From contig JARKQG010000041.1 in NCBI GenBank assembly GCA_029974035.1, forward strand, positions 1 through 26,080: a stretch of DNA of 26,080 nt. Reading direction: 5' to 3'. The stretch comes from Eubacteriales bacterium. Its GTDB lineage: Bacteria; Bacillota_A; Clostridia; Christensenellales; Aristaeellaceae. The notes below the pieces were generated by a model that saw nothing but the letters and a program-made list of their open reading frames with translations, ran no database searches and was not told the origin of the DNA. Numbering within the stretch: position 1 is the stretch's first letter; each line of letters opens with the position of its first letter. Positions 7,096 through 26,080 of this stretch are shown piece by piece. The translations under genes were made by a program, and so were the position numbers.

Positions 7096-7120
7096 ACGTA
7101 CCCCCACTGCCCAAGGATTT

Positions 7121-7140: not shown

Positions 7141-7176
7141 AGTCCGCAAAACCGGAGCGTCACCGCGTTTCCACTG

Positions 7177-8952: not shown

Positions 8953-9012
8953 GCGTCGTGCCTCCCCGGATGTACTCGGCGCCGATGATGTGTCTGAACC
9001 TGAATGGATGGA

Positions 9013-9043: not shown

Positions 9044-9063
9044 GAACCCGGAACCCCGGGGCG

Positions 9064-10338: not shown

Positions 10339-10389
10339 GATTGGAAACCCTCCTTAATGTCGGTGTTCGCCAGGGCGTCGGGATCCGAA

Positions 10390-10412
10390 TTCGCCGCGCA
10401 TGCGCCGGCGAA
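10390..10412 (-). other. Hairpin between the aldolase and the solute-binding protein gene
   Basis: TTCGCCG at 10390-10396 pairs with CGGCGAA at 10406-10412; the core CGCATGCG is itself self-complementary, so an almost continuous stem with one bulged C forms. It lies within the 86-base gap upstream of the binding protein's ribosome site. Together with the hairpin at 9013-9043 it brackets the binding-protein message. Confidence 0.6.
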
Positions 10413-10424
10413 ACCTTGAAAACG

Positions 10425-11042
10425 TCACTTGTCGAGAAACATCTGGACTTCGGCGTCCGGCAGGTTGGAGATCGGCCCGATGCGCTCCGCGTGGTAGAGC
10501 ACCTTGGCAATGGACTCCGCCGCCTCCACCTTGTTCATCGCGGCGCGCAGGTCCGCGCCGACGGCCAGCACGCCGTGGTTTCCCAGCAGCACGATGTCGT
10601 GTTTTTTCACGAATTCCTCGGCCACGTCAAAGATCTCGGTGGTGCCGGGGCGCCCGTAGGGGGCGCAGGGGATGATTTTGAAGTTCCCGATCATTTCCGG
10701 GTACGCGCGGGTTTCGATGGATTTTCCGCACAGCGAATACGCCGTCAGCATCGTCGGGTGCGCGTGCACCACGCCGAACACATCCGGGCGGGTTTCGTAG
10801 GCGCGGGTGTGCAAAAGCATTTCGGACGAGGGCTTCCGGACGCCGGCCACCTGCCGGCGCGTCTTTTCGTCGATGACGCAAATCAGCTCCTCCGTCAGAA
10901 AGGCCTTGTTTACGCCCGCGGGCGTGATGTAGATGTAGCCGTCCTTCCTGAGGGACACGTTGCCCTCGTAGGCATTGACCAGATGGCATTCATCCAGGCG
11001 TTTGCAGACCCTGAGTACCTCTTTGATTGCGCCGACATCCAT
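10425..11042 (-). CDS. Class II aldolase (AraD/FucA family), L-fuculose-1-phosphate aldolase-like
   Basis: 205 residues; ATG at 11042 with AAAGGAGGAG upstream. The zinc and catalytic set matches E. coli FucA with an offset of one: Glu74 (in SSEMLLHTR), His93 and His95 (VVHAHPT) and His156 (GNHGVLAVG). The N-terminal EGNVSLRKDGYIYITPAG is the substrate phosphate-binding region. FucA-type enzymes split L-fuculose 1-phosphate into DHAP and L-lactaldehyde; ribulose-phosphate epimerases of the same fold are the alternative. The RhaB/FucK-like kinase is encoded 30 bases upstream and the importer genes lie downstream, which supports a deoxy-sugar pathway. No isomerase gene is in the window, so the ketose-forming step must be encoded elsewhere. 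Confidence 0.9.
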   Translation of the reverse strand: MDVGAIKEVLRVCKRLDECHLVNAYEGNVSLRKDGYIYITPAGVNKAFLTEELICVIDEKTRRQVAGVRKPSSEMLLHTRAYETRPDVFGVVHAHPTMLTAYSLCGKSIETRAYPEMIGNFKIIPCAPYGRPGTTEIFDVAEEFVKKHDIVLLGNHGVLAVGADLRAAMNKVEAAESIAKVLYHAERIGPISNLPDAEVQMFLDK

Positions 11043-11072
11043 GAAAAGCTCCTCCTTTGTGTTTCGTCGAAA

Positions 11073-12542: not shown

Positions 12543-12612
12543 CGGGTTCATACCTTGGATCGCCTCGCATATCGCTGAAGATTCCGCGGGGTAATTCGCA
12601 TCTTTTGCGTAT

Positions 12613-12641
12613 ATTGTAATGCCGGAGGCAGGCATTGTCAA
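12613..12641 (-). promoter_or_regulatory. Sigma-A promoter of the kinase-aldolase-transport operon
   Basis: On the minus strand TTGACA (12641-12636), a 17-base spacer and TACAAT (12618-12613). The -35 is consensus and the -10 differs at one position. The start of transcription should fall about 60-65 bases before the kinase ATG at 12542. The spacer is occupied by an inverted repeat described separately. Confidence 0.85.
12618..12636. promoter_or_regulatory. Operator-like inverted repeat inside the promoter spacer
   Basis: AATGCC (12618-12623), seven bases, GGCATT (12631-12636): perfect 6-bp arms that fill the -35/-10 spacer exactly and touch both hexamers. Such a position would block RNA polymerase when occupied. 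The ROK regulator encoded at the end of this operon is the natural candidate, but this is inference. Confidence 0.65.
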
Positions 12642-12720
12642 GCTGTGCCCGGTGTTAATTTTATCAATAAAGTAGCATATACACAAAAAATAAGTCGAAA
12701 ATGATAAAATGCGCCTTTGC

Positions 12721-12749: not shown

Positions 12750-12799
12750 GCGGGTACCAAGGCGCGTTGCCCGTCGCCCGGCGGAAAGGAGGGCTTGCC

Positions 12800-14308
12800 G
12801 TGCCCGGAAGCACCGAAGGGGCGGAGGACCGCCCGCTGCTCATGACCATCTTTGGCGGCACGGGGGATCTGACCCAGCGCAAGCTGCTGCCCGCGCTGTA
12901 CCACCTGCTGGCGGAGGGCCGCCTGCCGCGGGAGACCGTCATCCTGGCCGTCGGCCGCAGGCCCATGGAGGACGAGTCCTACCGGCGCCGCGCCCGCGAG
13001 GCCGTGGCGGCCTTTTCGCGCTCCGGGGCAGACGAAGAGAAGCTGGCGGGCTTCCTCGCCCGCCTGCACTACCGGCAGATGGACTTCATCGGCCAAAGCG
13101 ACAGCTTCCGCCATCTGGCGGACTGGATCGGGCGGCGCGAGGCGGACTTTGGCGCGCCGGCGGTGCGGCTCTTCTTTCTGGCCGTGAGGCCGGAGCACTT
13201 CGGGCCCGTGGTGCGCAGCCTCGGCGCCCACGGCCTGGCGGAAAAGGGCAACCCCGACCACCGGGTGCTGATCGAAAAGCCCTTCGGCCGGGATCTGGCC
13301 TCGGCGCGGGCGCTGGGCGCCACCATCGCCCAGGGGCTGGAGGAGCGGCAGGTGTACCGCATCGACCACTACCTGGGCAAGGAGATGATCCGAAACATCC
13401 TGGCCATCCGCTTTGGCAATTCCCTTTTTGAGCCGCTGTGGAACCACCACTACGTGGACAACATCCAGATCACCTCCACTGAAACCCTGGGCGTGGAGGG
13501 GCGCGGCGAATATTACGAGCAAAGCGGCATCCTCCGGGACATGCTGCAAAACCATCTCCTGCAGATGCTCGCCCTCATCACCATGGAGCCGCCGGTGGAC
13601 CTGACGCCGGAATCCGTGCGGGACGAAAAGGTCAAGGTGCTGCGCTCCCTGCGCCGGTTTGATTCGGCCGACGCCTGCCGGGGCGTCGTGCTGGGCCAGT
13701 ACGGCCGGGGCGGCGCCGGAGTGCCCGCCTACCGGGAGGAGGCCAGGGTGGCCGCCGACTCCATCGTGCCCACCTACATCGCCCTCAAGGCGGGGGTGGA
13801 CAACTTCCGCTGGGGCGGCGTGCCCATCTACATCCGGTCGGGCAAGCACCTGGAAAAAAACCTGACGCAGATCGTGGTGGAGTTCAAGCGCCTGGCGGGC
13901 GTCAACTTCTACCCGGAGTTCGAGGGCCGGCCGCCGAACCTTCTGGTCATCCGGGTGCAGCCCGAGGAGGGCATGTCCTTTCAGATCAACGCCAAGCGCC
14001 CGGGCGACGCGCTTCAGATGGAGCGGGTGGCGCTCAACTACAGCCAGAGCGGCCGCTTCCAGGGCAACGTGCCCGAGGCCTACGAGCAGCTCCTGATGGA
14101 GGCGCTGCGGGGCAACGCCTCGCTCTTCACCCGGTGGGACGAGCTGGAGCACTCCTGGCGCTTCATCGAGGGGCTGGAGGGCTACTGCGGCCGGGGCGAG
14201 GGCCGGCCGCTGATCTACCCCGCCGGCTCCCGCGGGCCCGGGGCCGCCGACCGGATGCTGGCCCTGGACGGCCGCCGCTGGTGGGACATCGACGAAGCCG
14301 GAAAGTAA
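12800..14308 (+). CDS. zwf: Glucose-6-phosphate 1-dehydrogenase
   Basis: 502 residues from the GTG at 12800, chosen because AAGGAGGG lies six bases upstream; an upstream GTG at 12767 would add 11 unconserved residues. NAD(P) loop IFGGTGDLTQRKL (17-29); VLIEKPFG with Lys160; RIDHYLGKE with Asp189 and His190; catalytic His252 in RDMLQNHLLQ; RSGKHLEKN. The His190/His252 spacing of 62 equals that of the Leuconostoc enzyme (178/240). The enzyme oxidises glucose 6-phosphate to 6-phosphogluconolactone and makes NADPH in the cytoplasm. No phosphogluconolactonase or 6-phosphogluconate dehydrogenase gene is adjacent; instead a cyclase-family hydrolase follows after 19 bases. Confidence 0.96.
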   Translation: MPGSTEGAEDRPLLMTIFGGTGDLTQRKLLPALYHLLAEGRLPRETVILAVGRRPMEDESYRRRAREAVAAFSRSGADEEKLAGFLARLHYRQMDFIGQSDSFRHLADWIGRREADFGAPAVRLFFLAVRPEHFGPVVRSLGAHGLAEKGNPDHRVLIEKPFGRDLASARALGATIAQGLEERQVYRIDHYLGKEMIRNILAIRFGNSLFEPLWNHHYVDNIQITSTETLGVEGRGEYYEQSGILRDMLQNHLLQMLALITMEPPVDLTPESVRDEKVKVLRSLRRFDSADACRGVVLGQYGRGGAGVPAYREEARVAADSIVPTYIALKAGVDNFRWGGVPIYIRSGKHLEKNLTQIVVEFKRLAGVNFYPEFEGRPPNLLVIRVQPEEGMSFQINAKRPGDALQMERVALNYSQSGRFQGNVPEAYEQLLMEALRGNASLFTRWDELEHSWRFIEGLEGYCGRGEGRPLIYPAGSRGPGAADRMLALDGRRWWDIDEAGK

Positions 14309-14327
14309 AAGGATCGGAGGCCGCACC

Positions 14328-14963
14328 ATGCGCATCATCGACATCTCCATGACCATCCGGGAGGACATGCCCGTCTACCACGACGCGCCGGAAAAGCGCC
14401 CCGTGCACACGGTGGTGCGCCGCATCCCGCCGGACGGCGTCAACGAGTCCGCGCTCAGCATGAACCTGCACACCGGCACGCACCTGGACGCGCCCCTTCA
14501 CATGATCCGGGACGGACGGCCCACCGAATTTCTGCCGCTGGAGCGGCTGATCGCGCCCTGCCGCGTGCTGGATCTGACCCATGTGGCGGGCGGGATCACC
14601 CGCGGCGATCTGGAGGGGCTGGACGTCCGCGCGGGGGAATTTCTGCTCCTTAAAACGGAAAACTCCGCCCGCGATGCATGGCGGGAGGAGTTTGTGTACC
14701 TTGAAAAGAGCGGCGCCGAATGCCTGGCCGAGCGCCGCGTCAGCGGCGTGGGCATCGACGCCCTGGGCATCGAGCGCGCCCAGCGCGGCCACGAAACCCA
14801 CATTACGCTGATGAAAAACGACGTCATCATCCTGGAAGGCCTTCGGCTTGGGCACGTGGCGGCGGGGCGCTATCTTCTGATCGCGCTGCCGGTGAAGATC
14901 GCCGCGGCGGACGGCGCGCCCGCGCGGGCCGTGCTGGTGGAAGGGGCGCTGCCCGAGGGATAG
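14328..14963 (+). CDS. Cyclase-family metal-dependent hydrolase (PF04199, kynurenine formamidase-like)
   Basis: 211 residues; ATG at 14328 with GGAGG upstream. The signature HTGTHLDAPLH (His48, His52, Asp54, His58) is the metal-binding HxGTHxDxPxH motif of PF04199. The N-terminal IIDISMTIREDMPVYH and the later VSGVGIDALGIE stretch are also typical. Characterised members hydrolyse N-formylkynurenine, isatin and other amide or lactone-like bonds. The gene is 19 bases downstream of zwf and probably co-transcribed. No tryptophan genes are nearby, so a formamidase role is unlikely on context. A role on a sugar lactone is possible but is inference. Its stop lies in a 14-bp palindrome shared with the convergent gene. 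Confidence 0.88.
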   Translation: MRIIDISMTIREDMPVYHDAPEKRPVHTVVRRIPPDGVNESALSMNLHTGTHLDAPLHMIRDGRPTEFLPLERLIAPCRVLDLTHVAGGITRGDLEGLDVRAGEFLLLKTENSARDAWREEFVYLEKSGAECLAERRVSGVGIDALGIERAQRGHETHITLMKNDVIILEGLRLGHVAAGRYLLIALPVKIAAADGAPARAVLVEGALPEG

Positions 14964-14975: not shown

Positions 14976-16289
14976 TTACCGCGCCGCGGCAGGCCCCAGG
15001 TTGGCGCCGAGGTCCGCCAGCGCCCGCTTGAGCCGATCGACGTCCGCCGCGTGCACGCTCCGGCCGTCTTCGGCGCACTGGGCCGCGGCCAGGCCGGCCG
15101 CCTGCCCGAGGCCCATCATCGACGCCTGCACCCGGGCGGAGGCCGAGGCTTCCCGGTCGGCGGAGAAGGAGCGGCCCGGGACCAGCAGGTTGGGAAAGCC
15201 CTCCGCGATCAGCGACCGGTAGGGGATGTAGGCGGCCTCCTTCAAAAACTCGCACTTCTGGCTGGCGCCGTCGGCGGCGTGAATGTCGATGGGGTGCGCG
15301 CCGCGGCCGACCGCGTCCGGAAAGGGCAGGGCGGCGGCGTATTCCGCGCCGGTCAGCACGTGGACGCCCCGGATGTGCCGCGTTTCGCGCACGCCGGTCT
15401 GCGCCGCGGTGTAGACGATGCGCGCGTTCCGGAAGGCCTCGAACCGGTCGCGGAGCGCCTCCGTCAGGCGGAAGGCGTCCTCCCGAAGCCGGCATTCCAC
15501 CCGCGTCTGGTCCCGCTCGTCGGCCATGTCGCCCTCCGCGCGGGTCATGTTGACCAGCACCCGGTCCTCCGCGGTCATCCAGCACATCCAGGGCCCGCCG
15601 AAGGTGGGAATTTCGCCCCGCGCGGCGAGGGGCAAAAGCTCGTCCCGCAGCCATTCCATGTGATAGTTGACGCCCTGCCGATCGTGGCGGATTTTGGGAA
15701 GCGCCCGGGCGTCCACGCCGCCCAGACAGAAGCAGAGGGACGCGGGCTGTCCGGGCTGCGGAAAGCGTTGCATCGGCACGCCCGCCATGTGGCCGAGGTC
15801 GCCGTCGCCGGTGCAGTCGAGAAAGTACCGGCCCGCCAGCGCCCGCGCGCCGCCCTTGCCTTCGAATACGGCGTGGGTAATTTTTCCGCCGTCCGTCAGG
15901 CAGTCCGAGAGATAGGCGTGCAGAAAAAGCGTCACCCCGGCCTCGAGGGCCATGCGCTGGGCCAGCAGCTTGTAGGCCTCCGGATCGAAGCAGACGCTGC
16001 CCAGCGGGTATTCGATGGAGGCGCCGCCGGATTCCTCCAGGCGCCGGGCGAAGGCCCACGGGATGCCGCCCACGACCAGTTCGCCGTTATAGCAAAATTC
16101 GCTTACGGGCGCCACCAGCCCTGCCGTCGCCATGCCGCCCAAAAAGCCGTAGCGCTCGATCAGCGCCACCTTTGCGCCGGCGCGGGCCGCGGCGATGGCG
16201 CCGATGAAGCCGCTGGGCCCGCCGCCGCACACCACCACGTCGTACGCGCCCGCCACGGGCGCTTCCTTATGGATGGAAACCGATGTCAT
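14976..16289 (-). CDS. FAD-dependent oxidoreductase (PF12831 type), short form
   Basis: 437 residues; ATG at 16289 with AAAGGAGGG upstream. Rossmann FAD loop YDVVVCGGGPSGFIGAIAAARAGAKVALIER (about 16-46), then GFLGGMAT, a substrate-side segment with FDPEAYKLLAQRM...GVTLFLHAY (101-125), the second FAD contact FLDCTGDGDLG (156-166), GVRETRHIRG and a C-terminal PNLLVPGRSFSADREASASARV...GLGQAAG nucleotide-binding region. No signal peptide, so it is cytoplasmic. Substrates of this family are mostly unknown. It is the second gene of a two-gene unit with the 634-residue paralogue 51 bases upstream and resembles the 469-residue enzyme encoded divergently. It oxidises or reduces an unknown compound, possibly sugar-derived. 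Confidence 0.88.
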   Translation of the reverse strand: MTSVSIHKEAPVAGAYDVVVCGGGPSGFIGAIAAARAGAKVALIERYGFLGGMATAGLVAPVSEFCYNGELVVGGIPWAFARRLEESGGASIEYPLGSVCFDPEAYKLLAQRMALEAGVTLFLHAYLSDCLTDGGKITHAVFEGKGGARALAGRYFLDCTGDGDLGHMAGVPMQRFPQPGQPASLCFCLGGVDARALPKIRHDRQGVNYHMEWLRDELLPLAARGEIPTFGGPWMCWMTAEDRVLVNMTRAEGDMADERDQTRVECRLREDAFRLTEALRDRFEAFRNARIVYTAAQTGVRETRHIRGVHVLTGAEYAAALPFPDAVGRGAHPIDIHAADGASQKCEFLKEAAYIPYRSLIAEGFPNLLVPGRSFSADREASASARVQASMMGLGQAAGLAAAQCAEDGRSVHAADVDRLKRALADLGANLGPAAAR

Positions 16290-16340
16290 GCCGTTGCCCT
16301 CCTTTGCCGCTTTTCGCGGGGAGAATGCCCTTTGCGCCGC

Positions 16341-18245
16341 TCAGCCATAGGCGCGGATCTCGTACACGCGGGCGTCGGCATCGCCATTGGTGGCGAGGAC
16401 GCGCAGCTCGAGCCGGTCGCACTTGACGGCCTTGTCCAGGTCGTGCACCCTGAGCCGCTGGTGGTTGTCCGACACCCGAAGGCGCAGGACCTCCGCGCCG
16501 CCGCGCCAGGCCCTCAGCTCGTAATCCCGCGCCAGTTCCTTCGCCACGCCCCGCGGTTCCTTGTCGATGAACGCCCTGGACACCGTGATGCACCGCTCCT
16601 CGGACAGGTTCGGGTCCAGCGTCAGCCGGATCTGCCGCAGAAAGACGGGGCTTTTCCAGGTGAGGGTCAGCGCCTCGCCACCGGGGGCGAGGCCGTTTGA
16701 GCGCCACAGGTGGCTCTCGCCGCCCACGCGCCGCGCGACGCCGCTGAGCACGTTTTTCGCCCCGTAGCCCGGCCGCTCGGAAGTGGCGCTGACGGCGGAC
16801 CGCCGCGCCAGGTCGTCCGGGTCCTCGTTTTTGCGGCCGGGGATGTAGCAGTCCGCCTTCAGAAGCTGCTGGCGAAGGGCTTCGATGTGGCGCCTCCCGA
16901 ATTCCGCCGGCTTGAGGCCGCGAAGCGCCGCCATGCCCGCCGCGGTCCCGGCCGCCTCGCCGCCCACGGCGCAGGTCGCCATCACGCGGGTGGAGCCCAT
17001 GGCCAGCTTGGTGGCGCTGATGTTGCGGCCGGCCATCATCAGGTTTTCGATGTTCTTTGAGCAATAGCAGCCGTAGGGGATGGAGTACAGCCCCTCGAAG
17101 GAGCGCACCCGGGAGGGGATTTCGCCCTTGGCCCGAAAGCCGCCGGCGGTGTGTTCGTCCATCGGCCAGCCGCCGTAGGCCACGGCGTCCGGAAAGACCC
17201 GGTTGGTCAGGATGTCGTTTTCGGTCAGGATGCGGTCGCCCACCAGCCGACGGCTCTCGCGGGTGCCGGGCACGGTGCCCACCCACACCAGCTCGTAGTT
17301 GTCCGCGCCGTGGTCGCCGCCGTTTTTGATGTGATCCCACACGCCGTAGACGCAGCGGTACAGTTCGTAGCGGATGTCCTCCGCCTGGGCGATGATGTCG
17401 TCCCAGTCCCCGCCCAGCTCGATCCACCAGTAGCCGGACTCCACGTCGTACTTTTCCACCAGCTGGTCGGCGTGGTCGGCGTAGTCCTCGCCGGGCCTGA
17501 GCACCACCACGTCCGAGGCGTCGTGGTACACCACGATGTCGCCGTGGTAGCGGTGCGCGAAGTCGCTCTCGTCAAAGGCGTAGGCCCAGGAGGGGCGCAC
17601 AAACTTCACCGGGCGGCCGGTGTCCCGCGCGCAGAAGTAAATGGTGTTGCCCATGGTCTCGCCGTCCCGGGCGGGGGGCGCGTCCTTTTCGCCGAACTCC
17701 GCGGCGGCCTCGCGGCCGATCATGTACTCCGCGCCGGCAAAGTAGCCCAGTGTGCCGTGGCCGGTGCAGTCCAGGTAGATCCCGCCCTCCAGCGCGAAGC
17801 GCCGCTCGGTGGTCATCTGGTAGCACTCGATAAACTGGATATTCCGTCCGTTGGAGAAGACGCGGTCCATGGTGGTGTTCATATAGAGCTCCAGGTTTTC
17901 CGTGTTCTTTGCCGCCGACCACAGCACCCCGTCCCAGATGGAGTAGTTGTAACTGTCGTTCAGGTACTTGTTTTCCAGCTGCAGCTCCATCAGGATGCCG
18001 GTCTCGGCGGCGTCCTTTTTGCCCCAGTGGCAGGACGCGCCGGAGATGTGCATGCGCGTTTCCGAGCTGGCGTTGCCGCCGAACACGCCGCGGTCCTGCA
18101 CCAGCGCGGTGCGGGCGCCCTGACGCGCGGCCGCCATGGCCGCGATGAGGCCGCTCATGCCGCCGCCCACCACCACCACGTCATAGCGCCGCGGGTCGGC
18201 GGGGTTTTGCGAGCAAACGGGGGTTTCGCGAATGTACTGTTTCAT
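16341..18245 (-). CDS. FAD-dependent oxidoreductase (PF12831 type) with C-terminal discoidin-like domain
   Basis: 634 residues; ATG at 18245 with AAAGGAG upstream. FAD loop YDVVVVGGGMSGLIAAMAAARQG (21-43), GVFGGNASSETRMHI (53-67), YLDCTGHGTLG (157-167), GTRESRRLVGD (327-337), NLMMAGRNISATKLAMGSTRVMATCAVGGEAAG (401-433, FAD tail). From about 485 to the end a beta-rich module (SATSERPGYGAKNVLSGV ... LWRSNGL ... LRQIRLTLDPNL ... CDRLELRVLATNGDADARVYEIRAYG) reads like an F5/8C discoidin domain, normally a carbohydrate-binding fold on secreted proteins. There is no signal peptide, so here it is probably inside the cell. First gene of the minus-strand unit. Family call good; discoidin assignment by pattern only. 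Confidence 0.87.
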   Translation of the reverse strand: MKQYIRETPVCSQNPADPRRYDVVVVGGGMSGLIAAMAAARQGARTALVQDRGVFGGNASSETRMHISGASCHWGKKDAAETGILMELQLENKYLNDSYNYSIWDGVLWSAAKNTENLELYMNTTMDRVFSNGRNIQFIECYQMTTERRFALEGGIYLDCTGHGTLGYFAGAEYMIGREAAAEFGEKDAPPARDGETMGNTIYFCARDTGRPVKFVRPSWAYAFDESDFAHRYHGDIVVYHDASDVVVLRPGEDYADHADQLVEKYDVESGYWWIELGGDWDDIIAQAEDIRYELYRCVYGVWDHIKNGGDHGADNYELVWVGTVPGTRESRRLVGDRILTENDILTNRVFPDAVAYGGWPMDEHTAGGFRAKGEIPSRVRSFEGLYSIPYGCYCSKNIENLMMAGRNISATKLAMGSTRVMATCAVGGEAAGTAAGMAALRGLKPAEFGRRHIEALRQQLLKADCYIPGRKNEDPDDLARRSAVSATSERPGYGAKNVLSGVARRVGGESHLWRSNGLAPGGEALTLTWKSPVFLRQIRLTLDPNLSEERCITVSRAFIDKEPRGVAKELARDYELRAWRGGAEVLRLRVSDNHQRLRVHDLDKAVKCDRLELRVLATNGDADARVYEIRAYG

Positions 18246-18294
18246 GGTGCGTACGCTCCTTTAAGCCGGGCCTCGGGGACCGCTGCCGGTTTCG

Positions 18295-18323
18295 ATGGTA
18301 GCACCGGCCGGGCGCCCCGTCAA
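18295..18323 (-). promoter_or_regulatory. Probable sigma-A promoter of the minus-strand FAD oxidoreductase pair
   Basis: On the minus strand TTGACG (18323-18318, five of six), a 17-base spacer and TACCAT (18300-18295, four of six). It lies about 50 bases upstream of the ATG at 18245. The weaker -10 would suit an activator. Confidence 0.5.
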
Positions 18324-18367
18324 CGCACGATCCTTCTGGATTTTGGCGGATTGTGGTCCGATATTTC

Positions 18368-18419
18368 GAATCTGTCCCATTCCTTTTGAATACTATTCCT
18401 AGAATTGACTTTCAAATTC
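18368..18419. promoter_or_regulatory. Alternating GAAT/ATTC motif array in the divergent promoter region
   Basis: In an AT-rich island GAAT occurs at 18368, 18388 and 18402 and its complement ATTC at 18379, 18395 and 18416, strictly alternating. The core is GAAT-N3-ATTC-N3-GAAT (18388-18405), two overlapping perfect palindromes. It lies upstream of and across the -35 box of the plus-strand promoter and about 45 bases upstream of the minus-strand -35. Likely an operator cluster for a dimeric regulator; the YesN-like protein encoded downstream is a candidate. Confidence 0.55.
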
Positions 18420-18433
18420 CGCGCGCCTATACT
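18405..18433 (+). promoter_or_regulatory. Sigma-A promoter of the plus-strand FAD oxidoreductase/YesNM unit
   Basis: TTGACT (18405-18410), 17-base spacer, TATACT (18428-18433); both hexamers miss the consensus at one base. A perfect TATAAT at 18433-18438 overlaps the -10 but would need a 22-base spacer. The leader to the GTG at 18479 is about 40 bases. Confidence 0.72.
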
Positions 18434-18478
18434 ATAATCGTGGGGTTTGTGTGAAACGGCGGATGGGAGGACGGGGCA

Positions 18479-19888
18479 GTGAAGACGGACATCGTAACCT
18501 ATGACGTGATCGTCGTCGGGGGCGGCCCGGGCGGCCTGCCCGCGGCAATCGCCGCGGCGCGGCAGGGCGCGAAGGTGCTGCTGGTGGAGAAAAACGGCTA
18601 CCTGGGCGGCAACCTGACCATCGGGCTGCCGCTTCTGGGGTTTCTCGACAAGGACGGCAACCAGGTGATCCGCGGCATCGCGCAGGAGCTGATCGACGCG
18701 CTGACGGCCCGGAGCGCCGCCAGCCCCCACCACTGGTGCCCCATGCACGATTCGGTGACGATCTACGACCACGAGGTGTTCAAGGTCGTCGCCTTTGAAA
18801 AGTGCCTGGAGGCCGGGGTGACGCTTTTGATGCACACCCAGGTGATCGACGCCGACGTGGAAAACGGCGCGCTCCGGTCGGTGACGCTCTTTGGAAAGTC
18901 CCGGCGGATCGAGGCCCGCGCGAAGGTGTTCATCGACGCCACCGGCGACGGCGACGTGGGCTACATCGCGGGCGCGCGGTTTGAAATGGGGCAGAAGGAC
19001 ACCGGCGTACTGCAGCCGCCGACGCTGATGTGCACCGTGGACGGCGTGGACGTGGAGGAGATCATCCGCTATCTGGAGGCGCACCCCGAGCAGATGCGCC
19101 TGGCGCCCACCATCGAAACCTACCCGGGCTATGACGCGGCCTACCTGCGGTCCAACCCCCGGCACCATGTGCTGGTGGGGCTGCGCGCCCTGTTCTCCGA
19201 GCTTCGGGAGAAGGGCGAGCTGCCCGTCAGCCGGGATACGCTGATCTACATCCAGAGCCTCGTGCCCGGTCAGGTGCACCTGAACTGCACCCGGCACCAG
19301 GGCATCGACGGCAGCGACGCATTGGACCTGACCCGTGCGGAGATCGAGGGCCACATCCAGATTCTGAAGCTGGTGGAGATGCTCAGGGCCCGCGTGCCCG
19401 GCTTTGAAAACTGCCATCTGACGCAGATCTACCCGTTCATGGGCGTTCGGGAAACCCGCCGGTTCCGCGGCCTGGCCACGCTGACCGAGGACATGCTGAC
19501 GCGCGGCGCGATCGGCGGGGATTCGGTGGGCATCGGCTCCTACATCATCGACATCCACGACGGCGGCGGCGCGGGCACCATCGTCAAAAAGGTGAAGCCC
19601 TACGGGCTGCCCTACGGGATGACCTGCTCCGCCGACATCGCCAACCTGATGTTCAGCGGCCGGTGCGCGTCGATGGACGCGGTGGCCCTCAGCTCGGCCC
19701 GGGTGATGCCGCCGCTGATGGCCATGGGCCAGGGCGCGGGGGTCGGCGCCGCGCTGGCGGTCCGCCTGGGGGTCTTCCCCGGGGCGGTGGACGTGCGGGA
19801 GATCCGCGCCATCCTCGCCGCCGACGGCGTGATGCTCGAGACCGACCCGAACGCAACGGAAATGCCGGCGGCCGGGGAGCGGAACTGA
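18479..19888 (+). CDS. FAD-dependent oxidoreductase (PF12831 type), 469 residues
   Basis: GTG start at 18479, eight bases after GGGAGG. FAD loop [23 protein letters not shown] (8-30), GYLGGNLT (40-47), the insertion [24 protein letters not shown] (84-107) that precedes the [10 protein letters not shown] strand, [15 protein letters not shown] (151-165), [21 protein letters not shown] and [32 protein letters not shown] near the C-terminus. Cytoplasmic. It is a paralogue of the two minus-strand enzymes, closest in layout to the 437-residue one. It heads an operon with the two-component regulator genes 18 bases downstream and, after a further gap, an importer, so the oxidised substrate may be what the sensor detects or the transporter brings in. 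Exact reaction unknown. Confidence 0.88.
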
Positions 19889-19906
19889 TCCGGAGAGGGG
19901 GACGCG

Positions 19907-21535
19907 ATGTACAGGGCCATTTTGGTGGACGACGAGGAGGCGGTGCTGAGCGGGCTGAAGCGCCACGTGAACTGGCGCCGGCACGGCGTGGAGATCGTCG
20001 GCGCCTTTCCCGATGGGCAGAAGGCCTGGGACTACGTCCGGGAGCACCCGGTGAACCTGGTGGTCACCGACGTTTGCACGCCCTTCATGGACGGCATCGA
20101 GCTGGCCAGGCGGGTGCGCGCGGCGTATCCCCGCACCAAGATCCTCTTTATCAGCGGCCATGCCGACGTGGCCTACCTCAAGGACGCGCTGAAGCTGGAC
20201 GCCGTGGACTACATCCTGAAATCCATCGATCTGGACGAGATGGACCAGACGCTGACCCGCGTGACGGGCATGATCGGTGAGGAGCGGGCGCGCGAGGAGA
20301 AGCTCTATGAAATGGAGGATCTGCTGACGCAGTCGATGCCGCTGCTCCGCAGCCGGCACCTGGCGATGCTCCTGAGGGAGAACGACGAGGACGAGGCCGC
20401 GGCGCTCAGCGAGGCGCAGTACCTGGGCATCCCGCTGGAGGCGAACGTCCACTATGCGGTGGTGGTCGTGCGCCTTTGCAACAAGTGGCAGGTGATCGGC
20501 GGCATGAACGAAAAGCAGCGGATGCTTTTCAGCCTGAAGATCCAGACCATCTGCGAGAACGCGCTGCGCCGCCACGGCAGCAGCATCTGCTTCAAGGACC
20601 GGATCGGCGAGTACATCCTGATCGTCAACGCCGAGGGCGAGGACTGCGAAACCGCGATCCTGGGCGTGGCCGCGGACGTGCGCGAGTGCCTGATGGCGGA
20701 GCTGGAGCTTTCGGTGTCCATCGGCATCAGCGACCGCTTCACGGGCATCCTCAAGATCCGCGAAGCCTACAAAAGCGCCTGCGAAGCCATCGAGATGCGC
20801 TACCTGATCGATTCCGATCTCCCCATCTCGGTCAACAAGTACGAAGAGGTGGACGACCTGAGGCGCGCCCGGGAGCGGGCGGAAAAGGAGATCGGCGAGG
20901 CCATCATGAACGGCGACGCCGACGCCGTGCGGAAGGCGCGCGAGGGCCTGATCGAATACGTGCGCCGGATCCCCTCTGAGGACGAGCGGCAGAACTTTCT
21001 CATGTTCCTTCTGCTTTTGCCCGCGCGCCTTCTGACCAGCCTCGCCACCCGGGAAAAGGGCGTCTATTCCTCCCAGCGCCGGCTGATGGAGCGGTTTTTG
21101 TCCTGCCGGGCCGAGGAGCAGGAGTCGCTGATCGCCCGGGCCTACGACGAGGTGACGGCGCTGATCCGGCGGCGCAGCGCGCCCCAGTCCAGCGCGGTCA
21201 TCCAGCGGGTGCGGGAGATCATCGGCAGCCGGTACGCCCAGCGGCTCTCGGTCTCCGGACTCGCGCGGGAGGTGTACCTGACGCCCACCTACCTGTGCGT
21301 CCTGTTCAAGCAGCAGACCGGCAAGACCATCAACGAGTACATCACGCTGGAGCGCATCCGCCGCGCCAAGGAACTGCTGACGGATTCCGGCATCCTGCTC
21401 TACGACGTGTGCTTCATGGTGGGGTACCTGTCGCCCAGCTATTTTTCCAAGCTCTTCAAAAAGTACACCGGGTTTACGCCCAGCGAATACCGGGAGCACT
21501 CCGTGCTCGGCGCCCGGAAGGGCGGCAGGGCGTGA
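19907..21535 (+). CDS. Response regulator with AraC-type DNA-binding domain (YesN-like)
   Basis: 542 residues; ATG at 19907 after GGAGAGGGGG. The receiver domain is at 1-120: acidic pair Asp8/Asp9, phospho-acceptor Asp55 in VVTDVCTPFMDG, and Lys104 in YILKSID, where the usual KP is KS. A long middle region (about 130-430) of the YesN type carries no assigned motif. The AraC double helix-turn-helix is at about 432-531 (LSVSGLAREVYLTPTYLCVL...; YDVCFMVGYLSPSYFSKLFK). The next gene, a histidine kinase, starts within its stop (GTGA overlap), so the pair is coupled. Family members switch on nearby oligosaccharide importer genes; here the LplB/YtcP-type genes downstream and perhaps the divergent oxidoreductases are likely targets. 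Confidence 0.95.
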   Translation: MYRAILVDDEEAVLSGLKRHVNWRRHGVEIVGAFPDGQKAWDYVREHPVNLVVTDVCTPFMDGIELARRVRAAYPRTKILFISGHADVAYLKDALKLDAVDYILKSIDLDEMDQTLTRVTGMIGEERAREEKLYEMEDLLTQSMPLLRSRHLAMLLRENDEDEAAALSEAQYLGIPLEANVHYAVVVVRLCNKWQVIGGMNEKQRMLFSLKIQTICENALRRHGSSICFKDRIGEYILIVNAEGEDCETAILGVAADVRECLMAELELSVSIGISDRFTGILKIREAYKSACEAIEMRYLIDSDLPISVNKYEEVDDLRRARERAEKEIGEAIMNGDADAVRKAREGLIEYVRRIPSEDERQNFLMFLLLLPARLLTSLATREKGVYSSQRRLMERFLSCRAEEQESLIARAYDEVTALIRRRSAPQSSAVIQRVREIIGSRYAQRLSVSGLAREVYLTPTYLCVLFKQQTGKTINEYITLERIRRAKELLTDSGILLYDVCFMVGYLSPSYFSKLFKKYTGFTPSEYREHSVLGARKGGRA

Positions 21536-23313
21536 CGGGCAATGCGTTCCCGCGGCGCAACCTCCACCTGACGCGGGCCGTGCTGGTGGCGCTGCTGGCG
21601 GCCTTTGTCTGCCTCACGGTCATCTCCGCGCGGCTGTACGCCCGCTCCACCAACGCCGCGGTGGAGTCCGAGGCGCTGCGCGGCATGCAGCTGTCCGTGG
21701 AGCAGGCCAAAAACAACCTCGATTACCGGCTGCGCCAGACCGCCGACAGCGCCAGGACGCTGCTGGGCACGGTCTACCCCTATCTCAACTCCAGCGCGGG
21801 CACCGAGGGCCAGCTGCAGGAGTATTCCGACATGACCCGCGTGCTCAACGAGTACCGGGGCAAGTACATGATCTCCAAGGTTCGCCTTTTCGTGCCGGCG
21901 GGCAAGATCTACGCGCGGCAGGGGGCGACATTTTATTCCCTCGCGTCGCTGGAGGACGACCGGGACTTCCGGCGCCTGGTGGGCGACAGCTGGGGCGGCG
22001 TGTTCTGGCAGGGGCCCCGGCGGGTGACCACCGACATCGGCGTCAGCATGCTGGCCATTTCCTGCGTGGGGGTGGTCTCCGGCAGCAAAAACTACAACCA
22101 GTACGTCGGCGCGCTGTACCTGGACATCGACGTGGGCCAGATCGGCGGCATCTTTGAGGTGGGCGGCGCGGAGGGCACCGAGCTGTACCTGGTGGACGAG
22201 GACGGCGTGGTGGTCGCCCACGCGGACGAGGAGCGCATCGGGCAAACGGCCCTCGGCGCGGAGCAGATGGCCCGGGTCCGCCAGGCGGGGAGCGGCGCCC
22301 TCTCCGGCGACAGCGTGACCGCCTTCCGGAAGATCGACACCTGTGACTGGTACCTGATCGACACCACCGACCGCGCCGCGCTCACCCGGGCCAACGGGCA
22401 GACGGCGGGCATTTTGATGGTGCTGATCGCGGCGACGCTGCTGGTGGCGCTGGTCATCGCGATGATGATCGCCTACGACATGATGCTGGGCCGCACGGCG
22501 TCTACCATCAATCAGGCGGTGCGAGCGCTGGAGAGCGAGCCGGACCCCGCCGCGCCGGTCCGGGGGCCGGGCCGGTTGGACGCGCTGGCGCGGCTCAGGG
22601 TCAGCGCCGGCAAGATGGCCCTCGCGGTGCAGAGAATCGTCGAGGAGCGATACCGCAACCGCCTGGCCATCTCCGAATACCAGATGCAGGCGCTGCAGGC
22701 GCAGATCAAGCCCCACTTCCTTTACAATACGCTGGACGTGATCAAGTGGATGATCGCCGACGGCGACATGGAAAACGGCGTGTGGATGGTGAACGCGCTG
22801 TCAAAATACCTGCGCATGAGCATCAACAAGGGGCCCGGGACGGTGCCTCTTGGCGAGGAGCTGGCGCTGACGCACAACTACCTGGGCATCATGCGGCGCC
22901 GCTTCAAAAACGCCTTCCGGGTGGAGACCGAGATCGAGCCCGAGGCCATGGAGTGCCATCTGCCCCGCTTTTCGCTGCAGCCGCTGGTGGAAAACGCGCT
23001 GCTTCACGGGCTGATCGACTGCGACAAGCCCGACCGCAGGCTGACGCTGCGCGCGTGGCTGGAGGGCGACCGGGTGTTCATCGAGATCGAGGACAACGGA
23101 AAGGGCATGCCCGAGGAGGCGCGGGCGCGGCTGGAGTCGCGCGGCGCCGGGCGCGACGCGGGCTACGGCGTGGCCAACGTCCGCGAGCGGCTGCGCCTGT
23201 TCGGCGGCCCGGAGGCCGGCTTCCGGGTGTCGTCGCGGGAGGGCGCGGGCACCTGCGTGTCCATCGCGCTGCCCGTCCGCTTTGACGACGCGGAGCCGGA
23301 GGGCGGGGCCTGA
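21532..23313 (+). CDS. Sensor histidine kinase, YesM/LytS-type (His_kinase PF06580)
   Basis: 593 residues from the GTG at 21532 that overlaps the regulator's TGA by four bases; no other start precedes the first membrane segment (about 12-35). An extracytoplasmic sensor region of about 250 residues follows (37-290, double-Cache-like: YLVDEDGVVVAHADEERIG, CDWYLIDTTDRAAL), then a second membrane segment (about 292-318) and a poorly conserved HAMP-like linker. His395 in QIKPHFLYNTLD is the phosphorylation site. The ATPase domain has the N box at SLQPLVENALLHG (Asn488), DNGKGMPEEA (Asp521) and GYGVANVRERL. It senses an outside solute and phosphorylates the upstream regulator. The stop codon sits in the loop of a 7-bp GC hairpin. 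Confidence 0.94.
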   Translation: MTGNAFPRRNLHLTRAVLVALLAAFVCLTVISARLYARSTNAAVESEALRGMQLSVEQAKNNLDYRLRQTADSARTLLGTVYPYLNSSAGTEGQLQEYSDMTRVLNEYRGKYMISKVRLFVPAGKIYARQGATFYSLASLEDDRDFRRLVGDSWGGVFWQGPRRVTTDIGVSMLAISCVGVVSGSKNYNQYVGALYLDIDVGQIGGIFEVGGAEGTELYLVDEDGVVVAHADEERIGQTALGAEQMARVRQAGSGALSGDSVTAFRKIDTCDWYLIDTTDRAALTRANGQTAGILMVLIAATLLVALVIAMMIAYDMMLGRTASTINQAVRALESEPDPAAPVRGPGRLDALARLRVSAGKMALAVQRIVEERYRNRLAISEYQMQALQAQIKPHFLYNTLDVIKWMIADGDMENGVWMVNALSKYLRMSINKGPGTVPLGEELALTHNYLGIMRRRFKNAFRVETEIEPEAMECHLPRFSLQPLVENALLHGLIDCDKPDRRLTLRAWLEGDRVFIEIEDNGKGMPEEARARLESRGAGRDAGYGVANVRERLRLFGGPEAGFRVSSREGAGTCVSIALPVRFDDAEPEGGA

Positions 23314-23320
23314 CCCCGCC
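23302..23320 (+). other. GC hairpin across the histidine kinase stop codon
   Basis: GGCGGGG (23302-23308), loop CCTGA containing the TGA stop, CCCCGCC (23314-23320). No T-run follows, so it is not a normal terminator; it may be a partial attenuator separating regulator from importer transcription, or chance in GC-rich DNA. Confidence 0.4.
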
Positions 23321-23395
23321 GGCGCGCCATGTGCGAAAGTTTGAGCCAGAATACCATACATATGGGCATTTACGGTTTTAAACAAAATGTGTTAA

Positions 23396-23404
23396 TGTTA
23401 TCCT
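23396..23404 (+). promoter_or_regulatory. Possible extended -10 promoter of the importer genes
   Basis: TGT followed by TATCCT forms an extended -10 (TGnTAnnnT) in the AT-rich 156-base gap before the LplB-like gene; no convincing -35 box lies 17 bases upstream. GAATACCAT at 23349-23357 upstream matches GAATACTAT at 18388-18396 at eight of nine bases and could be an activator site, which would suit a promoter with a poor -35. Confidence 0.3.
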
Positions 23405-23469
23405 GAACAGCGGAATCGTAATTGGGAGTAAAACATAGATTCACGCAGGCCAGAAAGGAAGGAAGTGTA

Positions 23470-24471
23470 ATGGCGCAGAACCCTTCGCGCGCATGCGCCT
23501 CGGCCGGGGGCGGCCGGGTGCCCTGCCACAGGATTCCCGTCCGGAACAAAATCCACAACTTTTTCGTATACCTCCGGCAGCACCCGATGCTGTACGTGAT
23601 GCTGATCCCCGGGCTGGTGTTTCTGATCGTCTACAAATTCACACCGCTCTACGGCATCCTGATGGCCTTCAAGGACTACAACATCTTTGCCGGCGCCAAC
23701 CCCATTGACGCCATCGCCCACAGCCCGTGGGTGGGCATGAGCCATTTCAGCAAGCTCTTTGCCAGCTCCCAGTTCGGGAAGGTGCTTCTGAACACGCTCG
23801 TCATCAACGGCTACAAGATCGCGTTTCTGTTCCCGCTGCCCATCATCTGCGCGATTTTGCTCAACGAGATTCGCCAGCGGTCGGTCAAGCGCCTTTTGCA
23901 GACGTCGATCTACGTGCCCTATTTCTTTTCGTGGGTCATCGTGTTCGGCATATTCTATTCGCTGCTGGGCACCTATGGCATCGCGAACACGTTTTTGGCG
24001 TCGTTGGGCCTGGAGCGCATCCGCTTTTTCACCGACACGGCGGTCTTCCGAAGCCTGCTGGTGTTCACCGAGGGCTGGAAGGAAATCGGCTACAACACGG
24101 TCATCTACCTGGCGGCCATTTCCGGCATCGATATCGGCCTTTACGAGGCGGCCCGCATCGACGGCGCCAACAAGTGGCGGCTGATCTGGAATGTGACCCT
24201 TCCGGGGCTTTTGCCCACGATCGTGCTGATGCTGATCCTCAAGGTGGGCTACATTCTGGACACGGGCTTCGAGCAGGTGCTGGTGTTTTACAATGCCGCG
24301 GTGTACGACGTGGCCGACATCATCCAGACATACGTCTACCGCCTGGGCATGGGCCAGATGAACTTTTCGCAGTCGACGGCGCTGGGCCTTTTTAACTCGG
24401 TGGTGGCGTTCGTGCTGATCGTCGGCGCCAACGCGGTGAGCAAAAAGCTCCTGAACCGCAGCATTTGGTAA
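23470..24471 (+). CDS. ABC importer permease, LplB/YteP type
   Basis: 333 residues; ATG at 23470 after AGGAAGG; the frame is open upstream but has no ribosome site there. N-terminal cytoplasmic stretch, then a first membrane segment at about 40-58 (PMLYVMLIPGLVFLIVYKF) followed by TPLYGILMAFKDYN, a hallmark of LplB-like permeases, and five further segments. The EAA loop is at 224-250 (LYEAARIDGANKWRLIW then TLPGLLPT). C-terminus YRLGMGQMNFSQSTALGLFNS is also typical. These permeases import oligosaccharides such as pectin or xylan fragments and often lie beside YesNM-type regulators, as here. The YtcP-like partner follows after 13 bases. Confidence 0.94.
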   Translation: MAQNPSRACASAGGGRVPCHRIPVRNKIHNFFVYLRQHPMLYVMLIPGLVFLIVYKFTPLYGILMAFKDYNIFAGANPIDAIAHSPWVGMSHFSKLFASSQFGKVLLNTLVINGYKIAFLFPLPIICAILLNEIRQRSVKRLLQTSIYVPYFFSWVIVFGIFYSLLGTYGIANTFLASLGLERIRFFTDTAVFRSLLVFTEGWKEIGYNTVIYLAAISGIDIGLYEAARIDGANKWRLIWNVTLPGLLPTIVLMLILKVGYILDTGFEQVLVFYNAAVYDVADIIQTYVYRLGMGQMNFSQSTALGLFNSVVAFVLIVGANAVSKKLLNRSIW

Positions 24472-24484
24472 GGGGGCGAACGGC

Positions 24485-25411
24485 ATGACCACAAACATCG
24501 CGCGGAGAAAACTCAGGGGCGTTCCGCTGGAAAAGAGCGAAAAGCTGACCGTCGGCATCGCCTACACCGTGCTGATCCTCTTCGGGTTGATGGCGGTGCT
24601 GCCCTGCCTGCACGTGGTTTCCAAGGCCTTCAGCCTGGGCGCGCGGGTGACGGCCGGGCAGGTGGCCTTCTGGCCCAACGGCTTTCAGCTGGAGACGATC
24701 CGGTACGTCCTGACCAAGACCAGCTTTTTCGGCGCCCTCAAAAACTCGCTGATCGTGTTCGCGCTGGGCACGGCGGTATCCATGCTCACCACGGTCACCA
24801 CGGCCTATCCGCTGTCCAAGCCCGGCTTCAAGGGGCGCCGGGTGGTGACGATGCTCTACGTGATCAGCATGGTGTTCTTCGGCGGCATCATCCCGGCGTA
24901 CATGGTGGTCCGCGCGATCGGCATCTTCGACACCCACTGGGCGTGCATCCTGCCCTTCGCCATCGTGCAGTTCAACATGTTCATCGTGAAGAACTACTTT
25001 GAGGGCCTGCCCGAAAGCGTCGAGGAGTCGGCCAAGATCGACGGGGCGGGCGACGTGCGCACGCTTTGGAGCATCGTATGCCCCATGTCCACGCCGGTGT
25101 TGGCCACGGTGGCGCTTTTGTACGCGATCACCTACTGGAACAACTACTTCCACGTGATGATGTACACCAATTCCACCGAGATGCGCACCATCCAGCTCTA
25201 CCTTTACGACATCATCAACAACGGCCAGGCCTTCGCGGAGAACCTTTACAGCGGCTGGAACAGCGGCGGCGCCTCGATCTCGTCCAATGTGACCACCGAC
25301 GGCATGGTTGCGGCGGCGGTCACCATGTCGCTGGTGCCGATCGTGCTGATGTATCCCTTCGTCCAGCGCTACATGGTGCAGGGGATCACGATCGGGTCCG
25401 TCAAGGGGTGA
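24485..25411 (+). CDS. ABC importer permease, YtcP/LplC type
   Basis: 308 residues; ATG at 24485 with an AAGGGGGCG site. Six membrane segments, the first at about 23-45. NSLIVFALGTAVSMLTTVTTAYPLSKPGFKGR (88-119) is characteristic of the YtcP/LplC group. The EAA loop lies at 174-205 (LPESVEESAKIDGAGDVRTL then VCPMSTPV), with Ser in place of the first Ala. The protein ends PFVQRYMVQGITIGSVKG, as is standard for this family. Works with the LplB-like permease and the binding protein downstream. No ATPase gene accompanies them within the window. Confidence 0.94.
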   Translation: MTTNIARRKLRGVPLEKSEKLTVGIAYTVLILFGLMAVLPCLHVVSKAFSLGARVTAGQVAFWPNGFQLETIRYVLTKTSFFGALKNSLIVFALGTAVSMLTTVTTAYPLSKPGFKGRRVVTMLYVISMVFFGGIIPAYMVVRAIGIFDTHWACILPFAIVQFNMFIVKNYFEGLPESVEESAKIDGAGDVRTLWSIVCPMSTPVLATVALLYAITYWNNYFHVMMYTNSTEMRTIQLYLYDIINNGQAFAENLYSGWNSGGASISSNVTTDGMVAAAVTMSLVPIVLMYPFVQRYMVQGITIGSVKG

Positions 25412-25438
25412 GGCAGCCCGGGGCAACGGGGAAATCTT

Positions 25439-25455
25439 GGCCGCGCCACGCGGCC
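25439..25455 (+). other. Intercistronic GC hairpin before the second solute-binding protein gene
   Basis: GGCCGCG (25439-25445), loop CCA, CGCGGCC (25449-25455): a perfect 7-bp stem in the 74-base gap between permease and binding protein genes. A TATATT (25461-25466) follows, with TTGGCC (25437-25442) 18 bases upstream of it, so a weak internal promoter is an alternative reading. Either could raise binding-protein output relative to the permeases. Confidence 0.45.
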
Positions 25456-25485
25456 CGAGATATATTGAAACGGAGGGATTGCGAA

Positions 25486-26080
25486 ATGAAACGAATGTTG
25501 TCTGTCGCGCTGGCGCTGATGCTGGCGGTCCTGGTGGCGGCGCCGATGGCCGGCGCCGAAGCCCCCGCGCTCAAGGGGCCCGGCAACGTGACGCTCAAGC
25601 GGCTGGGCGGCAACGTGGGCTTTGACGTCAACGCCGACTACATGGTGCCCGTCATCAAGGAAGCCACGGGCTACGACGTCACCTACTACTCGCTGCCGGC
25701 CGAGAACGCCGACGAGAAGCTGCTGATGGACGTGGCCGGCGGCGCGGATTACGACGTGGTCAACGTCAACGTCAACCAGTGGCGCACGCTGATGGCCCAG
25801 GGCGCGCTGCTCCCGCTGAACGCGCTTCTGGACGCCTACGGGCAGGACATCCTGGCCGGCAACTCCGAGGAGACCTGGAAGGCGCTCTCCGACGCCGAGG
25901 GCAACATCTACGGCGTGCCCTACATGTATCCCTACAACAACGAGATCGCCAACTTCATGGCCTGCCGCTGGGACCTGATGAAGGCCGCGGGCATTGAAAA
26001 GATCCCCGCCACCATCGACGAGTTCTACGATGCCCTGGTGACCCTCAAGGACTTCTACGGCGATGAGTACATCGTCTTCT
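25486..26080 (+). CDS. Extracellular solute-binding protein (LplA-type importer), N-terminal part
   Basis: ATG at 25486 after CGGAGGG; 198 codons are in the window and the frame is open at the edge. Signal peptide at 1-24 (MKR, hydrophobic core, cleavage near AGA-EAP) with no lipobox cysteine. The mature start (VTLKRLGGNVGFDVNADYM, VIKEATGYDVTYYSLPAENADEKLLMDVAGGADYDVVNVN) has the pattern of family 1 binding proteins: a target helix, then the DYDVV strand and QGALLPLN loop, and later GNIYGVPYMYPYNNEIANF and RWDLMKAAGIEKIPATIDEFYDAL (the hinge-linked W.DLL...G...P.T..E motif). It should deliver the substrate to the LplB- and YtcP-like permeases encoded just upstream. Substrate unknown. Confidence 0.9.
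   Translation, partial: MKRMLSVALALMLAVLVAAPMAGAEAPALKGPGNVTLKRLGGNVGFDVNADYMVPVIKEATGYDVTYYSLPAENADEKLLMDVAGGADYDVVNVNVNQWRTLMAQGALLPLNALLDAYGQDILAGNSEETWKALSDAEGNIYGVPYMYPYNNEIANFMACRWDLMKAAGIEKIPATIDEFYDALVTLKDFYGDEYIVF

Follow-up and report, generated by a model that had tools for sequence, protein, structure and literature searches.

PF12831 flavoproteins linked to a YesNM-type sensor and an LplBC-type importer in a probable catabolic island of anaerobic bacteria

We analyzed a stretch of 26,080 nucleotides (hereafter the window) from an Eubacteriales bacterium, the distal part of which carries two divergent gene units. One comprises F2 and F1; the other runs in a single direction through F3, a response regulator, a sensor kinase, LplB-like and LplC-like permeases and a solute-binding protein (SBP). 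The features are as follows:

14976..16289, minus strand: F1, PF12831 flavoprotein of 437 amino acids, last gene of the F2-F1 unit
16341..18245, minus strand: F2, PF12831 flavoprotein of 634 amino acids with a C-terminal beta-rich extension (open reading frame and Pfam)
18364..18381, minus strand: motif AATGGGACAGATTCGAAA between the divergent F2 and F3 genes, differing by one mismatch from the motif upstream of F1 in relatives
18405..18433, plus strand: promoter of the F3 unit recognized by eye, sigma-70-like, with TTGACT and TATACT separated by 17 bp
18479..19888, plus strand: F3, PF12831 flavoprotein of 469 amino acids, first gene of the second unit (open reading frame and Pfam)
19907..21535, plus strand: YesN-type response regulator with Response_reg, GGDEF_2 and AraC HTH domains (Pfam)
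21532..23313, plus strand: YesM-type sensor kinase with dCache_1, His_kinase and HATPase_c domains (Pfam)
23338..23374, plus strand: operator-like direct repeat with 21-bp spacing upstream of lplB, found with a matrix from F3 and lplB promoters of relatives
23422..24471, plus strand: LplB-type permease, likely ATG start at 23470 (open reading frame and Pfam)
24485..25411, plus strand: LplC-type permease (open reading frame and Pfam)
25486..26080, plus strand: N-terminal part of the solute-binding protein, cut at the window's end (Pfam)

All three flavoproteins are intact, cover positions 1-416 of the 416 of the PF12831 profile and score 345.3 (F1), 277.0 (F2) and 374.7 bits (F3) against a Pfam gathering cut-off of 27, which bears out the three PF12831-like proteins of the first-pass annotation, as Pfam does for the co-orientation of F3 with a two-component pair and importer genes. 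The pair is of the YesNM type, with an AraC-type HTH regulator adjoining a Cache-domain His_kinase (PF06580) sensor whose start overlaps the stop of the regulator. Two BPD_transp_1 permeases and a large binding protein, cut in the window and 522-531 amino acids long at full length in relatives, define the importer as LplABC-type; of the “full set” of membrane and binding proteins first described, the LplB and LplC permeases stand, while the binding protein is incomplete. Among the 25 open reading frames scanned with Pfam (the first 320 bases and some overlapping frames lay outside the scan), neither an importer ATPase nor a glycoside hydrolase or polysaccharide lyase was matched, the latter as previously noted. 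D-psicose 3-epimerase, Zn-dehydrogenase, YesL and PfkB genes are absent from the window by tblastn, and neither Rfam (at its gathering threshold) nor a tRNA scan gave any match in it.

F1 and F3 share 33% identity over 450 columns, F2 and F3 25% over 446, and F1 and F2 only local matches; judged from these alignments, the three are distant paralogues. The extra C-terminal region of F2 matches DUF7402 below threshold (21.0 versus 27 bits), its predicted structure is poor (pLDDT 59.9) and no signal peptide was seen by eye. NCBIfam models matched the flavoproteins only far under their cut-offs, mainly at the FAD motif, and none of the solved relatives listed covers by sequence much beyond the FAD-binding part. 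As for geranylgeranyl-reductase/FixC FAD enzymes, the best 50 matches listed include many unrelated FAD enzymes, all scoring 17-20, so the resemblance shows only a common flavoprotein fold. An alignment of 73 PF12831 sequences is more informative: the GxGxxG motif (G14, G16, G19 in F3 numbering) is present in 72, with one gap, R324 and H360 are invariant in all 73, and E325 and D358 are found in 72. R324, E325, D358 and H360 form a likely active-site signature, as predicted from this conservation.

To explore conservation, F3 was searched in a genome collection holding one genome per species (84,980 species), a scan that detects close relatives only. It returned five loci, 71-77% identical and all from Clostridia or Oscillibacter metagenome-assembled genomes. 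F2, lplB, lplC and the SBP gene adjoin F3 in all five; the response regulator is present in 5/5 and the kinase in 4/5, the exception, L003, being a short contig. Unlike in the window, regulator and kinase are directed away from F3-F2-lplB-lplC-SBP in these relatives, and since gene order and strand differ in the window, the linkage has survived rearrangement. In the four longer loci the operon goes on with further PF12831 genes (F4, F5, F6), YesL and a Zn-dehydrogenase. Each of the genomes with these longer loci has F1 next to genes for a D-psicose 3-epimerase and a Zn-dehydrogenase, this group sitting on a separate contig in G002. Full-length PF12831 genes form clusters of five (G002, contig 33), six (G001, contig 2; G005, contig 39) and eight (G004, contig 7). 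Proteins 88% identical to F3 and F1, plus one 68% identical to an island F4, apparently come from the same relative, a hint, short of proof, that the window's closest relative has F4 alongside F1 and F3.

The distribution of F3-type genes is patchy (4/200, 2/300, 6/136 and 1/86 genomes at the thresholds applied, counting the centre genomes), and with orthologues so rare the shared linkage could partly reflect block transfer. In the genus of G005, with no more than 12 candidates scored per genome, PF12831 matches reach E 1e-60 or better in 50 of 136 genomes; among the matches listed, no genome free of the locus has more than two PF12831 genes within 30 kb (G003 is fragmented). Around F3 relatives of about 48-50% identity in G165, G339 and G371, no such importer occurs within the 20 kb examined.

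Searches independent of F3 led to the same association. PF12831 is not rare in the class: with four candidates scored per genome, matches of E 1e-75 or better occur in at least 125 of 391 genomes, and at least eight (G001, G555, G569, G646, G711, G745, G752 and G804) have three or more listed matches within 30 kb. The same regulator, kinase, lplB and lplC are found in six of these eight, namely G001, G646, G711, G745, G752 and G804; G555 has an SBP match without lplB or lplC, and G569 a different sugar-type importer. The sensor-importer module is also present in G867, which has two listed PF12831 genes on contig 39, and G189 combines members of the F1, F4/F7/F8 and F6 clades (described below) with a different sugar-type importer.

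In the opposite direction, an LplB alignment searched against 382 class genomes gave seven matches at 635-646 bits and the next at 438, a gap that is partly built in because five of the seven were rows of the search model. All seven lie inside islands, with the nearest flavoprotein at 2.6-2.7 kb. Of 39 LplB-like matches, including the five used to build the model, at least 15 lie no more than 15 kb from a listed PF12831 gene, versus 0.86 expected from the listed genes; once the seven islands are excluded, the figure is at least 8/32 against an expected 0.60 (density of listed genes). Agreement of the searches from both directions supports a real flavoprotein-importer association. Conservation of the flavoprotein genes beside the importer in related genomes, whose lack was to count against the first-pass idea, is thus found at 5/5 F3 loci and beside 7/7 top LplB matches.

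Six islands lying outside the F3 search (G646, G711, G752, G804, G745 and G867) are of a distinct, Ruminiclostridium type. Their identity to the window is 69-77% for lplB, 61-66% for lplC and 45-46% for the regulator. F3, found in five of the six, is 65-66% identical to that of the window; the stretches examined yielded no F2 or F5, and F1 is replaced by a distant member of its clade (F1b). In G646, DAE-F3-F8 lie on one strand and RR-HK-lplB-lplC-SBP-F4-F6-F1b-MDR_b-MDR_c-PfkB on the other; every open reading frame of the cluster matches a labelled island protein and the flanking ones match none (the flanks lay outside the family scan). The islands of relatives hold three to eight PF12831 genes from several deep clades together with Zn-dehydrogenases; a D-psicose 3-epimerase is usual among them and a PfkB kinase frequent. 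The trio of the window is hence not fixed, and the earlier proposal that successive oxidation steps are split between three enzymes is unsupported. Neither a glycosidase nor a Gfo/Idh/MocA gene was encountered among the island genes identified, none of which is uronate-specific.

The epimerase is the best defined of the accessory enzymes. It scores 425.9 (G001) and 475.1 bits (G646) on the D-psicose 3-epimerase model NF051856 (NCBIfam equivalog cut-off 300), and the G646 protein is identical over 293/293 residues to the crystallized enzyme of PDB 3vnk/3vni, which we take to be the D-psicose 3-epimerase of R. cellulolyticum H10. We infer that G646 is Ruminiclostridium cellulolyticum H10 and that the G804 island belongs to R. 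hungatei. D-psicose 3-epimerase is used industrially to make the sweetener allulose. In R. cellulolyticum, d-psicose isomerase is encoded by Ccel_0941 according to the available part of PMC8576529. The G867 island additionally has an L-ribulose-5-P 3-epimerase. PfkB, which is not in every island stretch examined, scores 204 on a fructokinase model, under the cut-off of 450, and the island Zn-dehydrogenases resemble L-threonine, inosose and idonate dehydrogenase models, all below cut-off. No published description of these islands was found in the literature consulted, mostly that outside subscription, where PF12831 is also scantly mentioned by accession or name.

A FastTree reconstruction of 73 PF12831 proteins placed F1, F2/F5, F3, F4/F7/F8 and F6 in separate clades with supports of 0.998-1.0. 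The F1 clade includes proteins named Alistipes and Parapedobacter, among others, and is common to Bacteroidota and Limiplasma proteins; the F2 clade includes Paenibacillus, Streptomyces, Flammeovirga and a haloarchaeon; a Microvirga protein groups with F3 at lower support (0.79-0.90). Sampling of F4 and F6 was confined to genomes of Clostridia. Tandem duplication as a simple origin of the window trio was rejected, given the separate clades and the relatives of F1, F2 and F3 in other phyla; recruitment is the preferred origin. In the tree, F2/F5, F7/F8 and, deeper, F4 with F7/F8 look like duplicate pairs. To our knowledge, PF12831 enzymes mostly lack an assigned function, and we know of no activity for these clades.

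Beyond Clostridia, 14 plasmid regions around F2 and F3 relatives were inspected: an annotated sugar importer is visible in five and missing from another five, one carries ABC genes whose type is not stated, and three are unannotated. With several regions devoid of a sugar importer, the association does not hold throughout the family. At about 40% identity, F3 relatives come after sugar permeases in Neorhizobium and Microvirga, the Neorhizobium one (41%, annotated in two pieces) lying between sugar permeases and UgpC-SDR-FGGY kinase genes. F2 relatives have two sugar permeases, a binding protein and a sensor kinase alongside in Paenibacillus cellulositrophicus, beta-galactosidases and a sugar importer on two Streptomyces plasmids, and, in a haloarchaeon, sulfatases and a beta-galactosidase together with ABC genes whose type is not given. 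No sugar importer was seen in the P. urinalis region (amino-acid-type ABC genes, Gfo/Idh/MocA, sugar phosphate isomerase/epimerase), the Flammeovirga region (sulfatases), the Bacteroides finegoldii region (GH130, GH2, GH88 and GH43) or those of Variovorax and Polaromonas.

Promoter regions were compared for signs of shared control. In close relatives, the F3 and lplB promoters have a common direct repeat, spaced by 21 bp, that ends at a TTGAC/TTTAC box. Eight such sites, with the window withheld, served to build a matrix. In the relatives, scores of 37 or more are confined to the regions upstream of F3 and lplB and, in G004, that of F8; the training set contained neither the F8 site nor the two sites of G005. 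This shared repeat supports co-induction of F3 and lplB in the close relatives. In the window the matrix peaks at 15.6 bits (23338-23374), ahead of 7.6 for the next site and of 12.5 for the best of 20 simulated first-order Markov windows; the F2/F3 region reaches only 2.1, and the window has the repeat only upstream of lplB. Motif AATGGGACAGATTCGAAA has a single window match and none in 100 shuffles, statistics that are post hoc because the motif was first noticed by eye. With an F1-type motif in the F2/F3 region and the repeat only at lplB, importer and flavoproteins of the window may be under partly different control. Upstream of lplB in L076-L079 the matrix scores 17.2, with best values of ten shuffles of 13.5, 18.3, 24.2 and 14.3, exceeding the best shuffle in two of four and falling below it in two, and nothing stands out in L080-L083. 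A single operator across all islands is unsupported, the signal being weak or absent in the more distant ones.

Gene content, the conserved linkage, the identity of the epimerase and the lack of a glycosidase among the identified island genes lead us to regard the window as probably one version of a conserved catabolic island, in which an imported carbohydrate-derived solute undergoes flavin/NAD redox chemistry and leaves through psicose, fructose and fructose-6-phosphate. The YesNM-type pair would sense an extracellular carbohydrate-derived solute, and the LplBC-SBP importer would take it up with an ATPase encoded elsewhere. Cytosolic PF12831 flavoproteins and NAD-type Zn-dehydrogenases would then transform the solute by oxidation and reduction, without a dedicated glycosidase. 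In relatives, D-psicose (allulose) could be converted to D-fructose by the D-psicose 3-epimerase, and D-fructose to fructose-6-phosphate by the PfkB kinase; the corresponding genes of the window's organism would be encoded outside the window. The idea of import coupled to redox chemistry is supported by flavoproteins tied to a YesNM-LplBC importer in relatives, and the genes that these relatives have in common, for D-psicose 3-epimerase, Zn-dehydrogenases and PfkB, speak for a hexose/ketose exit. We infer the substrate class, the order and direction of the redox steps, the electron acceptor and the psicose-fructose exit. Ketose 3-epimerases act on several sugars, so the true intermediates may be others than psicose and fructose.

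Other readings of the same genes deserve consideration. A route for a polyol, cyclitol or rare sugar, in which FAD-dependent dehydrogenases and Zn-dehydrogenases invert or shift a carbonyl and feed a ketose to the epimerase and kinase, is a serious candidate, though we would not bet on it: the 41%-identical Neorhizobium F3 relative sits among sugar permeases and UgpC-SDR-FGGY kinase genes, the Zn-dehydrogenases resemble (below cut-off) L-threonine, inosose and idonate dehydrogenase models, and epimerase and PfkB occur in relatives. Yet five or more flavoproteins seem excessive for one polyol, and a binding protein as large as that of the relatives, like the YesNM-LplBC pairing, is commoner for oligosaccharides. 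Rather unlikely, in our view, is deglycosylation by oxidation and elimination, whereby a flavoprotein oxidizes a ring hydroxyl, a partner eliminates the aglycone and a Zn-dehydrogenase reduces the keto-sugar, with separate enzymes for each linkage or position. It would accommodate the missing glycosidase, and it has a precedent in an operon pairing a flavoenzyme with a Gfo oxidoreductase and two sugar-phosphate-isomerase-like proteins, as described in the accessible part of PMC10628242; one F2 relative also adjoins a sugar phosphate isomerase/epimerase and a Gfo/Idh/MocA gene. Against this, the TIM barrel of the islands is by family score a D-psicose 3-epimerase and not an eliminase, Gfo/Idh/MocA genes are lacking among the identified island genes, and the window frames scanned contain no candidate eliminase.

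A broader and more doubtful extension would make the islands a flavin-based, glycosidase-free route for imported glycans or glycosides, with a PF12831 battery bearing the R-E + D-x-H signature that performs position-specific oxidation and possibly redox-neutral cleavage, feeding the psicose-fructose step. Finally, the flavoproteins might have no functional tie to the importer, both simply travelling on one accessory island that moves as a block. The patchy occurrence of F3-type genes fits such a scenario, but the association recurs with different gene orders, reappears in the Ruminiclostridium-type islands whose lplB and lplC are 61-77% identical to those of the window, extends to other LplB relatives, and in G569, G189, Microvirga and Neorhizobium involves sugar-type importers of other kinds, so that we consider it improbable.

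PF12831 enzymes gain a reproducible setting, in islands of three to eight, many of them tied to one importer subfamily and, in relatives, also to a characterized ketose epimerase. This gene set, coupling a sugar-type importer and sensor to several flavin enzymes, is common to distantly related anaerobic bacteria. If true, a sugar pathway driven by flavin enzymes and free of glycosidases would raise, for strict anaerobes, the question of the electron acceptor. The natural role of the allulose-producing D-psicose 3-epimerases becomes testable in R. cellulolyticum, for which gene inactivation has been published (PMC8576529, from the part of the text available).

Among known systems, the locus most resembles the YesNM-regulated LplABC-type oligosaccharide importers of Firmicutes, with which it shares a dCache/His_kinase sensor, an AraC-type regulator, LplB and LplC, a large binding protein and, in relatives, YesL (DUF624); it departs from them in having several PF12831 flavoproteins instead of any identified glycoside hydrolase or lyase. 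The accessible text of PMC10628242 describes the GlycDH-AtOGE-AtHYD-Gfo operon of Agrobacterium, in which a flavoenzyme, an oxidoreductase and TIM barrels of isomerase-like type process glycosides with no glycosidase involved. By comparison, the islands have a psicose epimerase as TIM barrel, Zn-MDR and not Gfo dehydrogenases, and three to eight flavoproteins. The combination of isomerase-like eliminase, hydratase and Gfo-type reductase was found neither among the window frames scanned, the locus running past the window, nor in the G646 island, where all frames are assigned and the psicose epimerase is the only TIM barrel. In the available part of PMC8576529, Ccel_0941 is treated as a lone enzyme with its neighbours unmentioned; here, it takes its place inside a flavoprotein-importer island.

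Besides its flavoprotein/importer island, the window carries a further sugar-type locus (7229-12686, minus strand), an aldolase/kinase group (2274-5707), and a dehydrogenase/cyclase pair convergent with the PF12831 flavoprotein gene F1:

2274-4142, minus: RpiR/SIS-type ORF, overlapping the aldolase ORF
3339-4220, plus: class II FBA/tagatose-type aldolase ORF
4241-5707, plus: xylulokinase-like FGGY kinase, following this aldolase ORF
5881-7206: ROK-family gene, adjoining the MalG/MalF locus
within 7229-12686, minus: MalG, MalF and a binding protein
within 7229-12686, minus: FucA-like class II aldolase
within 7229-12686, minus: rhamnulokinase-like FGGY kinase, whose score of 270 bits falls short of the cut-off of 528
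within 12767-14963, plus: glucose-6-phosphate dehydrogenase (556.9 bits)
within 12767-14963, plus: arylformamidase-like PF04199 cyclase, following the dehydrogenase (131.5 bits, below the cut-off of 223)

Sequences resembling F3, another flavoprotein of the window, occur elsewhere. On a Neorhizobium sp. EC2-8 plasmid (L067, 8944-10343), the F3-like gene lies within a sugar ABC operon as two overlapping annotated pieces and is therefore probably broken in that record. A shortened F3 match in genome G555 (L080, 5830-7249) is immediately adjoined by binding-protein-like sequence, with no lplBC permease genes in between, a junction reflecting either a deletion or an assembly join. The F3-like gene of G165 (L057, about 10405-11769) contains a single in-frame TGA, and is clustered with an FGGY kinase, the Zn-dehydrogenase MDR_b (74%) and a hydantoinase-A homologue 61% identical to that of G005. 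The latter genome harbors a satellite island on contig 47 (L044, 5058-15779), comprising hydantoinase-A, a Zn-dehydrogenase, a GDSL hydrolase, an FGGY kinase, an SDR, a PfkB kinase and the flavoproteins F7 and F8.

In G339 (L058, 2583-10582), an F3-like flavoprotein (49%) occurs without lplBC, near a 2-hydroxyacid-dehydrogenase homologue and genes resembling, by eye, KDPG-type aldolases and 2-keto-3-deoxy-galactonate kinase; this setting may point to sugar-acid chemistry among some members of the F3 clade.
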